A stretch of DNA of 53,097 nucleotides from Rhodovulum robiginosum (lineage in GTDB: Bacteria; Pseudomonadota; Alphaproteobacteria; Rhodobacterales; Rhodobacteraceae), in NCBI RefSeq assembly GCF_003944755.1, contig NZ_RWGU01000035.1:1-53097 (forward strand), read 5' to 3'. Within the stretch, counting starts at the first letter, position 1, and every line of letters starts with the position of its first letter. Shown piece after piece: positions 15,736 through 40,704 of the stretch. Position numbers and translations under genes: made by a program. The notes below the pieces were generated by a model that saw nothing but the letters and a program-made list of their open reading frames with translations, had not been told where the DNA came from and did not search any database.

Positions 15736-16095
15736 CTAGCCCGCCACCGGCGCCATCAGTTCCACTTCCGCGCCATCGCGGACAGCCGTGAAAAAACAGC
15801 TTTGCCGGTTGGTGTGGCAGGCCGGCCCCCGCTGGTCGACGACCAGCAGCAGGCAATCGCGGTCGCAATCGACCCGGAAATCGACCAGCCGCTGCACGTG
15901 GCCGCTGGTCTCGCCCTTCACCCAGAACGCCTGGCGCGAACGCGACCAGTAGGTGACGCGCCCGGTTTGCAGGGTGCGTGCCACCGCCTCGGCGTTCATC
16001 CACGCCATCATCAGCACCTGTCCGTCCTCGGCCTGGGCGATGGCGGGGATCAGGCCCTGTGCATCGTAGCACAAGCTTGCGGGGTCAAATGCCAT
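15736..16095 (-). CDS. hisI: Phosphoribosyl-AMP cyclohydrolase
   Basis: A 119-residue enzyme for the third step of histidine synthesis, opening the adenine ring of phosphoribosyl-AMP. Typical motifs are [33 protein letters not shown], and the metal-binding cysteine set [20 protein letters not shown]. It is the stand-alone HisI form without the HisE domain. Start at ATG 16095 after AAGGAG at six bases; the longer upstream frame lacks support. The gene diverges from the scaffold gene starting at 16160, with 64 bases between them. Confidence 0.95.
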
Positions 16096-16159
16096 GGCGG
16101 CTCCTTTGAAAACCGTTTCGGGCAGGTTAGGTATAGAAAATCCGACCCGAGGAAAAGCC

Positions 16160-16615
16160 ATGAGCGACGAGACCGACCTGATCAAGCTCTATTCCCAGCG
16201 CATCCTGACGCTTGCCGCCGACATCCCCCATCTGGGCCGGCTCGAGGCGCCGATGGGCAGTGCGCGCAAGCGTTCGCCGCTTTGCGGCTCGACGGTCACG
16301 GTCGATCTGAACATCGATGCCGAGGGCCGCATCACCGCGTTCGGCCAGGACGTCAAGGCCTGCGCGCTGGGCCAGGCGGCGGCCGCGGTCGTGGGCGCCA
16401 ACGCCATCGGGCGCAGCCGGGACGAGGTCGAACAGGCCCGCGACCAGCTCAAGGCGATGCTCAAGTCCGACGGCCCGCCCCCCGCCCCGCCCTTTGACGG
16501 GCTCGAGGCGCTGATGCCCGCGCGCGACTACAAAAACCGCCACGCCTCGATCATGCTCAGCCTCGAGGCCACGCTCGAGGCGCTGGACGCCGCGCGCGAG
16601 TCGGCCTGCGCCTGA
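16160..16615 (+). CDS. IscU/NifU-like Fe-S scaffold protein, third cysteine absent
   Basis: A 151-residue protein with the fold of the IscU/NifU N-terminal scaffold: [18 protein letters not shown] (Cys42), [15 protein letters not shown] (Cys68), then [20 protein letters not shown]. In IscU the last motif is HC, providing the third cysteine ligand; here it is His128-Ala129. A further cysteine is only at residue 150. It may be a specialised or non-assembling scaffold relative. No other isc or suf gene is adjacent. ATG 16160 follows GAGGAAAA. It diverges from hisI, and a strong minus-strand terminator lies just after its stop. Confidence 0.75.
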
Positions 16616-16628
16616 TCCCCGACAGATC

Positions 16629-16668
16629 AAAAAAAAACCGCCGCACGCTGTGGGGACAGCGGCGGCGG
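16629..16668 (-). terminator. Intrinsic terminator for the minus strand
   Basis: Reading the minus strand, CCGCCGCCGCTGT, a CCCC loop and ACAGCGTGCGGCGG form a strong stem (one bulge) followed by nine T residues (16637-16629). It is correctly placed to end the transcript of the 40-residue membrane protein gene at 16809-16931, supporting that this small gene is real. It may also stop read-through of the plus-strand scaffold gene. Confidence 0.85.
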
Positions 16669-16808
16669 CAAGGGGCGTATCTGTGCGTTCCGGGCGGGAA
16701 CGGACCTTTGCCGCGTGGGGACAGAAAGTAAACGCGACGGCGCATCGGGTTTGGGGCATCGATGCGCGGGGGTCTGGCACAGATCGCAGGCAGAACCTTG
16801 ACGTCGGG

Positions 16809-16931
16809 TCAGACGAGCCCGGGCAGGTGCAGCCCGACGACGAGCATCACCATCAGCGCGGCTGCGCCGGCGGCATCCTGCAGCAGCGTCGCCTGGGACC
16901 GGGCGATCACGGTCTTCAACTCGGTCAGCAT
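16809..16931 (-). CDS. 40-residue single-helix membrane protein, candidate SOS-regulated
   Basis: A short gene: ATG 16931, preceded by GGGAG at a suitable distance, ending at TGA 16809. The protein begins MLTELKTVIARSQATLLQDA and then has one hydrophobic helix rich in Ala, Val, Leu and Met (GAAALMVMLVVGLHLPGLV), so a single-pass inner-membrane protein with a cytoplasmic amphipathic N-terminus. A terminator follows at 16629-16668. The upstream 100 bases hold five GAAC/GTTC half-sites including a perfect GAAC-N7-GAAC. This architecture resembles LexA-controlled small division inhibitors such as Caulobacter SidA, but the sequence itself is not similar enough to name it. Real gene likely; function inferred. 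Confidence 0.65.
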   Translation of the reverse strand: MLTELKTVIARSQATLLQDAAGAAALMVMLVVGLHLPGLV

Positions 16932-16967
16932 CGGTGGGCTCCCTGATTAACCTCTTGTTGACCTTTT

Positions 16968-17029
16968 GTTCTCATATTTGTCCAGCCGTGTAAAGAACTT
17001 TTTAGGAACATCCGTGAACACGCGAGAAC
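16968..17029. promoter_or_regulatory. Cluster of LexA-type half-sites
   Basis: GAAC at 16995-16998 and GAAC at 17006-17009 are exactly seven bases apart, the alphaproteobacterial LexA (SOS) box GAAC-N7-GAAC, with an AT-rich spacer TTTTTAG. Two more GAAC half-sites follow at 17016-17019 and 17026-17029, each after six bases. On the other side GTTC at 16968-16971 is seven bases from TGTC, one mismatch from a second box. The set lies between the recG stop and the 40-residue membrane protein gene, in that gene's promoter position. Binding of LexA is established for GTTC-N7-GTTC in Rhodobacter; here it is inferred. Confidence 0.6.
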
Positions 17030-17036
17030 AAACCGG

Positions 17037-22046
<5,010 letters not shown>

Positions 22047-34994: not shown

Positions 34995-35047
34995 GTCTAC
35001 TCTCTTCTGTTCTTAGGGCGTTCTGGCGCGTTTCGATTGCTATAGCG

Positions 35048-39645: not shown

Positions 39646-40704
39646 ATGGCATTCTTCATTCTCAGGCGGCTGGGCGTCATGCTGCTTACCGCGCTCTGCA
39701 TGACCTTCGTCGTCTTCCTGCTGACGAACCTGCCGCCCAACCTAGAGAAACTGGCCAAGACCCAGGCGGGCTCGCGCATCACCGACACAGAGGTGACGAG
39801 CTGGCTGGAGCGCAACGGCTATGCCGCCCCGATCCTGCTGCGCTATGGCGAGTGGCTGGGGGTCTGGCCCGCGGACCTGGTGACCGACGCCGAGGGCACC
39901 CCCATCGGCGGGCGCTGCCTGCGCGGCCGCTCCGGCATCACCAGCGCCGACGAGGTGCCGCGCTATTGCGGTGTGATCCAGGGCGACTGGGGCTATTCCA
40001 CCAAATACCGCGTCGGCGTGGCCGAGATCATCGGCGAGCGGCTGGCCCGCACCGGCATCCTGATGTTCTGGGCCTTCGCCACGATGGTGCCGCTGGCACT
40101 GATCATCGGCGTGCTGGCGGGGATGCGCGAAGGATCGGGGCTCGACCGCAGCCTCTCAACCTTTTCCATCGCCTCGACCTCGACGCCCGAATACGTTTCG
40201 GGCGTGATTTTCGTGGTGGTCTTCGCCTCGTCGATGGTCGGGCTGAAATGGTTCAACGGCTCGGCCAAATCCGCCGTCGACGGCGTGACCTTCGAGAATT
40301 TCACCCTGCCGGTGGCCACCATCGCGCTTTACGGCATGGGCTATATCGCGCGGATGACGCGGGCCTCGATGGCCGAGGTGATGACCGCGCAATATATCCG
40401 CACCGCCCGGTTGAAGGGGGTGAAGTTCAGCACCATCGTACTGCGCCACGCGCTGAGAAACGCGCTGATCGCGCCCTTCACCGTCATCATGCTGCAATTC
40501 CCGTGGCTGCTGACCGGGGTGGTCATCGTCGAGGCGCTGTTCGTGTATCCGGGCTTCGGCAACGCCTTGGTCGAAGGCGCGCAGAACAACGACATCGACC
40601 TGCTGCTCGCGGTGTCGGTCGTGGCGGTGGTGGTCGTGCTGGTCACCCAGCTGATTTCCGATATCGGCTATGCCTTCCTCAACCCGCGCATCCGCGTCTC
40701 TTAA
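39646..40704 (+). CDS. ABC transporter permease, DppB type
   Basis: A 352-residue inner-membrane permease with six main helices. It begins MAFFILRRLGVMLLTALCMTFVVFLLTNLPP, has a long periplasmic loop (about residues 35-125) with three cysteines in that region or near it, then the core helices (MFWAFATMVPLALIIGVLAG). The cytoplasmic EAA-type loop is AEVMTAQYIRTARLKGV. The helix VVIVEALFVYPGFGNALVEGAQNND is typical of DppB. It pairs with the next permease to form the channel. Confidence 0.92.
   Translation: MAFFILRRLGVMLLTALCMTFVVFLLTNLPPNLEKLAKTQAGSRITDTEVTSWLERNGYAAPILLRYGEWLGVWPADLVTDAEGTPIGGRCLRGRSGITSADEVPRYCGVIQGDWGYSTKYRVGVAEIIGERLARTGILMFWAFATMVPLALIIGVLAGMREGSGLDRSLSTFSIASTSTPEYVSGVIFVVVFASSMVGLKWFNGSAKSAVDGVTFENFTLPVATIALYGMGYIARMTRASMAEVMTAQYIRTARLKGVKFSTIVLRHALRNALIAPFTVIMLQFPWLLTGVVIVEALFVYPGFGNALVEGAQNNDIDLLLAVSVVAVVVVLVTQLISDIGYAFLNPRIRVS

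Follow-up and report, generated by a model that had tools for sequence, protein, structure and literature searches.

A candidate SOS transcription unit behind recG in Rhodobacteraceae combines a small predicted membrane protein with a conserved structured RNA

Here we present a conserved candidate transcription unit that lies directly behind recG in the family Rhodobacteraceae, described from a stretch of 53,097 nucleotides of Rhodovulum robiginosum (contig NZ_RWGU01000035.1, positions 1 to 53,097 of the forward strand; hereafter the window). We consider it probable that this is a self-contained unit of the DNA damage (SOS) response of the family, made of a SidA-like membrane peptide, encoded by a small open reading frame (sORF), and of a regulatory RNA module. 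As judged from sequence, this one SOS-type unit holds a new protein family together with a new RNA family.

The unit has its own putative promoter region just after recG, with a fixed array of LexA half-sites in which box A lies upstream of TTTACA and box B follows 17 nt on. It encodes a 40-residue peptide with a short N-terminus, net-basic on average, followed by a charge-free helix running to the C-terminus. The remainder forms a multi-branched RNA fold that is conserved and ends in a strong terminator. We infer a single transcript spanning promoter, sORF, RNA module and terminator. An earlier reading of this DNA from its letters alone (the sequence-only reading) had proposed a small membrane protein under SOS control beside recG; it contained nothing on the structured RNA at the 3′ end of the unit. 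The features, in the order of the gene strand, are as follows.

17037–19127, minus strand: recG, which precedes the sORF in the same orientation (Pfam RecG_wedge and RecG_dom3_C)
17026–17029, minus strand: fourth GTTC half-site, weakly conserved (columns 40–72%)
17016–17019, minus strand: third GTTC half-site, separated from box A by N6 (84–91% conservation of its columns)
16995–17009, minus strand: LexA-type box A, GTTC-N7-GTTC on the gene strand, perfect; second matrix match of the window (10.4 bits)
16989–16994, minus strand: TTTACA, candidate −35 element of a putative promoter
16957–16971, minus strand: LexA-type box B, GAAC-N7-CAAC on the gene strand, GTTGACCTTTTGTTC, one mismatch; best matrix match (19.8 bits)
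16939–16943, minus strand: GGGAG, Shine-Dalgarno-like
16809–16931, minus strand: ORF of the predicted 40-residue membrane protein, ATG start, stop codon included; no known family
16669–16808, minus strand: structured RNA module, from stop codon to terminator (model R2 matches 16669–16793)
16629–16670, minus strand: intrinsic terminator, hairpin and U run

The small protein and its spread

The sequence-only reading had pointed to a 40-residue frame starting with the ATG at 16931 behind a GGGAG, and both are present: the frame runs from 16931 to 16809 on the minus strand and encodes MLTELKTVIARSQATLLQDAAGAAALMVMLVVGLHLPGLV. Used as a single query, this protein matched 30 of 37 genomes of its own family (its own counted) and none of 24 genomes standing for as many other families of the class. 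A profile built from 25 sequences matched 261 of the 292 genomes of the order, representing 108 of 112 genera; among the matches listed there is a single one per genome, except for one genome with two. Searched across the class, the profile matched 7 of 289 genomes at an expectation value (E) of 0.01, four of them from the own family and three weak (L113–L115, E 0.002–0.007, two with an internal stop), and the sORF is not convincingly present in the class beyond the order.

For the analysis of the loci, 201 of 212 were kept, corresponding to 190 distinct sequences, with some genomes entered twice. Eight were dropped without an ORF match and three without a start in reach; these eleven comprise four loci with a shorter ORF (L121, L176, L229 and L201), two cut by the locus end (L138, L215), the three weak class matches, and two that carry the promoter pattern without the sORF and look like chance (L191, from Desulfobulbaceae, and L224). 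A smaller set of distinct proteins used 58 of 62 loci, four identical proteins having been dropped. In this set the length is exactly 40 residues in 55 of the 58 and the start is ATG in all of them. Third codon positions vary most and second positions least, and the median ratio of nonsynonymous to synonymous substitution rates (dN/dS) is 0.18 over 201 non-independent pairs with a high median dS of 0.72.

The protein has a near-invariant core, D19-x2-G22...L34-x2-P37, with D19 at 99%, G22 at 100%, L34 at 99% and P37 at 97% of 141 distinct 40-residue ORFs. Residues 20–40 are charge-free (mean K+R and mean D+E both 0.00) and residues 1–18 carry on average 2.6 K/R and 1.4 D/E; because the one part is uncharged and the other on average net-basic, the peptide is predicted to lie with its N-terminus inside. 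AlphaFold places helices at 2–11 and 13–39 with a predicted local distance difference test score (pLDDT) of 87.2 and a predicted template modelling score (pTM) of 0.47, and the prediction of a single-helix membrane protein is supported. Such a protein adjoining recG, as the sequence-only reading had it, proved to be conserved: in 197 of the 201 loci it is preceded by recG in the same orientation. Of the 201 loci, 160 have a convergent ORF downstream and 144 have hisI (recG, hisI and ligA were named by Pfam). In the window the convergent ORF downstream of the unit (16094–16615, plus strand) has zero Pfam matches at 1e-5.

The window protein itself gave zero matches in Pfam, NCBIfam, PHROGs and PADLOC. 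Pfam searches with 33 homologues yielded weak matches only, to four families with one member each (best E 0.0077), and a PDB search likewise gave weak matches only (E 0.43 and 0.59). In two named Paracoccus records the same promoter is followed by a shorter version of 31 residues, in which D-x2-G-x3-L and LP are retained. The four loci with a shorter ORF, which include Paracoccus aerius and P. saliphilus, have the same promoter and a divergent frame of 31–36 residues that keeps D-x2-G and WLP; their RNA and terminator sequences also differ.

TisB is a small hydrophobic SOS toxin with an adjacent antisense antitoxin RNA and an inhibitory 5′ leader, and toxins of this kind are patchily distributed. 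A TisB-like product of the sORF would be a LexA-controlled hydrophobic peptide that depolarises the membrane, restrained by the structure of its messenger RNA (mRNA) or by an RNA partner. This would fit the LexA-type promoter, the small hydrophobic peptide with one almost invariant acidic residue bordering its helix, and the highly structured RNA within the same unit. However the sORF is usually present in one copy and is near-universal in the family, unlike the patchy spread of such toxins, and the gap between the recG stop codon and the ATG, 105 bases in the window and a median of 114 nt over 197 loci, could hardly accommodate an antitoxin RNA read divergently, at which no search was aimed. 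We regard a toxin of this type as unlikely.

The LexA-type promoter

Between recG and the sORF the sequence-only reading had seen a layered LexA operator. Its perfect GAAC-N7-GAAC at 16995–17009 (box A) stands, and so do its two additional half-sites at 10-base steps upstream of box A (17016–17019 and 17026–17029); the GTTC-N7-TGTC that it placed at 16968–16982 and called near-perfect departs from the motif at two bases of one half-site, and the second box that is conserved lies instead at 16957–16971 (box B). What is left of that operator is a conserved multi-box promoter of LexA type whose second box had been misplaced.

The conserved array, aligned over the 58 distinct loci, which were picked by protein and not by promoter, reads GTTC-N6-GTTC-N7-GTTC-TTTACA-N17-GAACAAA-N4-CAACA, where the N7 of box A is usually YTAAAAA. 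Conservation is 84–100% in the columns of GAAC, of CAAC and of the three GTTC half-sites, and the 17-nt spacer from TTTACA to GAACAA is kept in 54 of the 58. If TTTACA is the −35 element, box B would sit where the −10 would fall, and this overlap would explain the fixed spacing. Searched for by itself, the pattern GTTCTTTAC-N(15-20)-GAACAA was present in 264 of 394 genomes of the family, nearly always once, compared to 15 of 394 for the reversed control. Both the frame and the boxes are conserved in relatives, a check that the sequence-only reading had proposed. In a scan of named genomes with the promoter pattern, among the 80 of 117 stretches listed, most are titled as Rhodobacteraceae genera. 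Viral contigs gave nine matches to the pattern, of which L233–L236 and L238–L240 lack the sORF, and L237 and L241 passed on a loose ORF rule alone.

A perfect box on its own is weak evidence because such boxes are common in the genome: GTTC-N7-GTTC occurs twice in the window and 82 times in the genome as against 64 for the reversed pattern, and the 41 window boxes with at most one mismatch are within the shuffle range (mean 33.7). It is the conservation of the promoter that lifts it above chance. These counts would lend themselves to the view that a chance ORF has met chance half-sites; that view is refuted by the ORF in 108 of 112 genera, by the promoter across the family and by the conservation of the RNA, and we give it practically no credence.

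The comparison with known LexA targets points in the same direction. Training boxes came from the upstream regions of lexA, recA and uvrA in one and the same set of 30 genomes (29, 30 and 27 of 30 used). A box with zero or one mismatch stands before 29/29, 30/30 and 27/27 of these genes, and a perfect one before 29, 28 and 24; shuffled upstreams contain a perfect box in 0.9% and one with at most one mismatch in 18% of cases. The resulting matrix of 86 sites, all from these boxes, ranks box B and box A first and second among all positions of the window. With a threshold at the 10th-percentile score of its own training sites, a few of which are poor (lowest −1.4), 112 of 188 sORF upstreams score above it, compared to none of 940 shuffles, 3 of 188 upstreams read backwards, and 0/27 and 0/26 (0/53) mraZ stretches. 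The sequence evidence for LexA control of the sORF promoter is strong. Box B, mostly GAAC-N7-CAAC and one base off the consensus, has perhaps been tuned in affinity.

A regulator other than LexA might bind the boxes instead. The strong conservation of the N7 of box A and of TTTACA would suit such a regulator, as would the GTTC-N6-GTTC spacing, which is unusual for LexA; against it, a matrix trained on lexA, recA and uvrA alone puts both boxes at the top of the window, and box B in the form typical of the family, TGAGAACAAAGAGGCAACA, is nearly equal to the recA boxes of many relatives, GAACAAGAGGCGAACA. We hold it to be very improbable. The part of a Dinoroseobacter LexA-site study available to us lists lexA, recA, dprA and others, and the sORF gene is not among the genes listed there (PMC6473078).

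Other boxes were observed along the way. The second perfect GTTC-N7-GTTC of the window (35009–35023, matrix score 9.2) overlaps a one-mismatch copy at 35020–35034 and falls between ORFs read as pyrH and frr; it is possibly chance. Elsewhere in the genome perfect LexA-type boxes precede ORFs that we named by eye as imuB, imuA, dnaE2, photolyase and mmcB (L031, L035, L037, L038 and L046).

The structured RNA and its possible targets

The stretch from the stop codon to the terminator is conserved in its sequence words as well as in its structure. The terminator that the sequence-only reading had placed at 16629–16668 was located at about 16629–16670 on the minus strand; across the loci a regular expression for the terminator matched 154 of 201, cutting early in a few. 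The RNA of the window, terminator included, folds at −79 kcal/mol (z −6.5), a value reached by none of 200 shuffles. A closing helix pairs the bases after the first CTGCCTG with those just before the terminator. Over 111 loci with distinct 5′ arms, the arms pair with their own partners at a mean of −20.9 kcal/mol versus −13.7 when swapped (standard deviation 0.30, 100 permutations), and swapped arms still pair fairly well.

MAFFT and RNAalifold applied to 89 diverse RNAs recovered the terminator and nothing more; the structure was derived from a closer set of sequences and a covariance model. This model (R1, 16 sequences), searched against 100 loci (450,887 bases) at E up to 1, gave 47 matches, all downstream of the sORF and on its strand, 45 of them placed by script and two by the place of the promoter. 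In the alignment of these matches (46 distinct rows), which leans towards structure, 90.0% of cells pair as against 61.5% in the shuffled control, all 28 modelled pairs change on both sides, and the covariation score is 0.504 compared to 0.139 for the shuffled control and no more than 0.089 once partners are slid. A refined model (R2) with strict filters gave 61 matches in 60 of 121 genomes of the order: 49 follow the sORF at distances of up to 73 nt, three lie downstream of the promoter and one elsewhere, with eight left out of the comparison with sORF or promoter. The one elsewhere is a second match in its genome, away from the sORF (G493:C1:2644683-2644815, plus strand, E 4.5e-4), and a possible paralogue.

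Rfam has zero matches at gathering score at the place of this RNA in the window, and 10 loci yielded four matches, the best at E 0.22. Elsewhere in the window, at 40281–40459 on the minus strand, Rfam matches Cis52_sRNA (Ruegeria cis52) with 117.5 bits.

Two short C-rich words stand out. In 143 RNAs, CTGTCCC occurs 136 times compared to 7.2 in shuffles and CTGCCTG 172 times compared to 6.9. The loops expose CUGUCCC, CUGCCUG and UGCCUC, with 76% of CTGTCCC and 67% of TGCCTG unpaired as against 45% overall.

One may ask whether this RNA, as an SOS small RNA, is the main product and the ORF secondary. Strong covariation, exposed C-rich loops, an own terminator and the lack of Rfam matches would agree with this, and the principle is shown by DinR of Klebsiella, in the part of that account available (PMC10907235). 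The ORF, however, is under clear protein-level constraint and is retained in species of the own genus whose 3′ part is short; we judge an RNA-first unit to be unlikely.

If the loops act by pairing, G-rich translation starts would be candidate partners. GGGACA is found within −20..+3 of the mraZ start in 9 of 27 genomes but at none of 29 lexA and none of 201 sORF starts, and in 0 of 30 ftsZ start regions (−30..+6); 27 mraZ leaders were read of 30 fetched, three being without a start that could be found. Pairing energies between loops and starts are slightly better than shuffles for mraZ (mean z −1.14 and −0.98), and for ftsZ the mean z against shuffled start regions is −0.67 (n = 29) and −0.60 (n = 28); the other starts give −0.50 for uvrA, +0.12 for lexA, +0.11 for the sORF and +0.21 for recA. 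Because the gain for mraZ and ftsZ is slight and uvrA reaches −0.5, we withhold a claim of an RNA target.

The leader of the dcw cluster, UpsM, was rejected as a conserved target: GGGACAG occurs in only 6 of 27 mraZ leaders and at varying places. GGGACAGGCA is present in the UpsM leader of R. sphaeroides, a 10-nt match that is not conserved, and in the own genome the UpsM-match pattern and its reversed form are equally frequent (10 vs 10). In the 27 leaders read (L258–L284) the UpsM leader is itself strikingly conserved (ATACAGG...GAGCAGACATCCCCCCAGGTGGC...). The ribosome-binding site of ftsZ, AGGCGG (usually ACAGGCGGAC or GCAGGCGGAC), is kept in 29 of 30 genomes (L378–L407); in the thirtieth the start is probably misplaced.

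A candidate checkpoint of the family

Several known systems resemble parts of the unit, as far as the parts of the cited papers available to us describe them. SidA of Caulobacter crescentus is an inner-membrane protein of 29 residues, induced in the SOS response, that binds FtsW (PMC4211646). The sORF product is likened to it as a tiny single-helix membrane protein, with predicted membrane location, behind an SOS-type promoter in an alphaproteobacterium, a likeness of description rather than of aligned sequences; with 40 residues, and just 31 in two Paracoccus records, it too is very small. Unlike SidA, the sORF follows recG family-wide, has the D-x2-G...L-x2-P core and shares its unit with a structured RNA. 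DinR of Klebsiella pneumoniae is cut from the 3′ end of the LexA-controlled dinI mRNA and represses ftsZ (PMC10907235). The sORF unit shares with it a LexA-type promoter, a small ORF, a 3′ RNA module before a Rho-independent terminator and possibly a division gene as its aim, whereas the protein encoded is different. Module, terminator and LexA-type promoter of a DinR-type layout are all present in the sequence, and a transcript spanning them is predicted.

Within the family, UdsC (RSP_7527) of Rhodobacter sphaeroides is a small RNA from a 3′ untranslated region (3′-UTR), reported to depend on RpoHII (PMC8625941, PMC9779115, PMC6238624), and shows a similar order of small ORF, 3′-UTR RNA and terminator. 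It was rejected as the sORF gene, as coordinates and protein differ: its published 5′ end at 1,289,874 fits another ORF of 57 residues, and the sORF lies at C4:1264762 in a genome taken as R. sphaeroides 2.4.1. UpsM, the dcw/mraZ leader, and its partner StsR are Rhodobacteraceae RNAs tied to cell division, StsR being reported under RpoHI/RpoHII control (PMC5089854, PMC8307010); UpsM differs from the sORF RNA in its locus, the mraZ leader.

In the unit that we propose, DNA damage would lead to RecA-driven cleavage of LexA and to a burst of the unit's RNA. The peptide would insert into the inner membrane with its N-terminus inside and restrain a membrane partner there, most likely a late divisome protein of the FtsW or FtsN kind, as SidA does. 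The C-rich RNA, perhaps once RNase E has released it, would act in trans on ribosome-binding sites rich in G, in the manner of DinR. SOS induction and arrest of division by the sORF unit would be the outcome.

A number of observations weigh against this proposal. The promoter is unproven because GAACAA is poor as a −10 hexamer; taken singly, the boxes pass the matrix threshold in only 22 of 183 loci (box A) and in 93 of 182 (box B); and the own genome has a recA box, GAACTTAACGTGAAC, that differs from box B. The profile leaves 31 of the 292 genomes of the order without a match, part of which the shorter Paracoccus-type ORFs may explain. The RNA models also leave gaps: of the 100 loci searched with R1 at E up to 1, 53 gave no match, and neither did 61 of the 121 genomes searched with R2 (strict filters, E up to 0.01). 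In the arm swap the own 3′ arm is the best in only 25 of 111 loci and in the top 5% in 54 of 111. Seven loci of the own genus have only 86–136 nt from stop codon to terminator end (180 in L001 and 177 in L002). A conserved RNA target was not found, mraZ and ftsZ barely beating shuffles and uvrA nearly matching ftsZ. Finally, no expression, LexA-binding or phenotype data for the locus were found in the literature searched.

That search, which for the most part covered papers outside subscription journals, found no description of the sORF protein or RNA, and the open-licence literature gave none of an SOS division checkpoint of Rhodobacteraceae. A checkpoint in two layers, in which one LexA-controlled transcript, fixed behind recG across the family, yields a peptide that stops the divisome at the membrane and a C-loop RNA that represses translation of dcw genes such as mraZ and ftsZ, is a speculative extension that we think rather improbable. 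Were it true, this would be an SOS RNA with two functions and deep conservation, the only one known to us.

The self-contained SOS unit as such offers a concrete, mostly single-copy and family-wide candidate for the SOS division checkpoint of Rhodobacteraceae, whose promoter, protein and RNA are each separately removable. It would add a new and strongly covarying RNA family to the SOS response, and may help bacteria of the Rhodobacter family to pause while their DNA is repaired.
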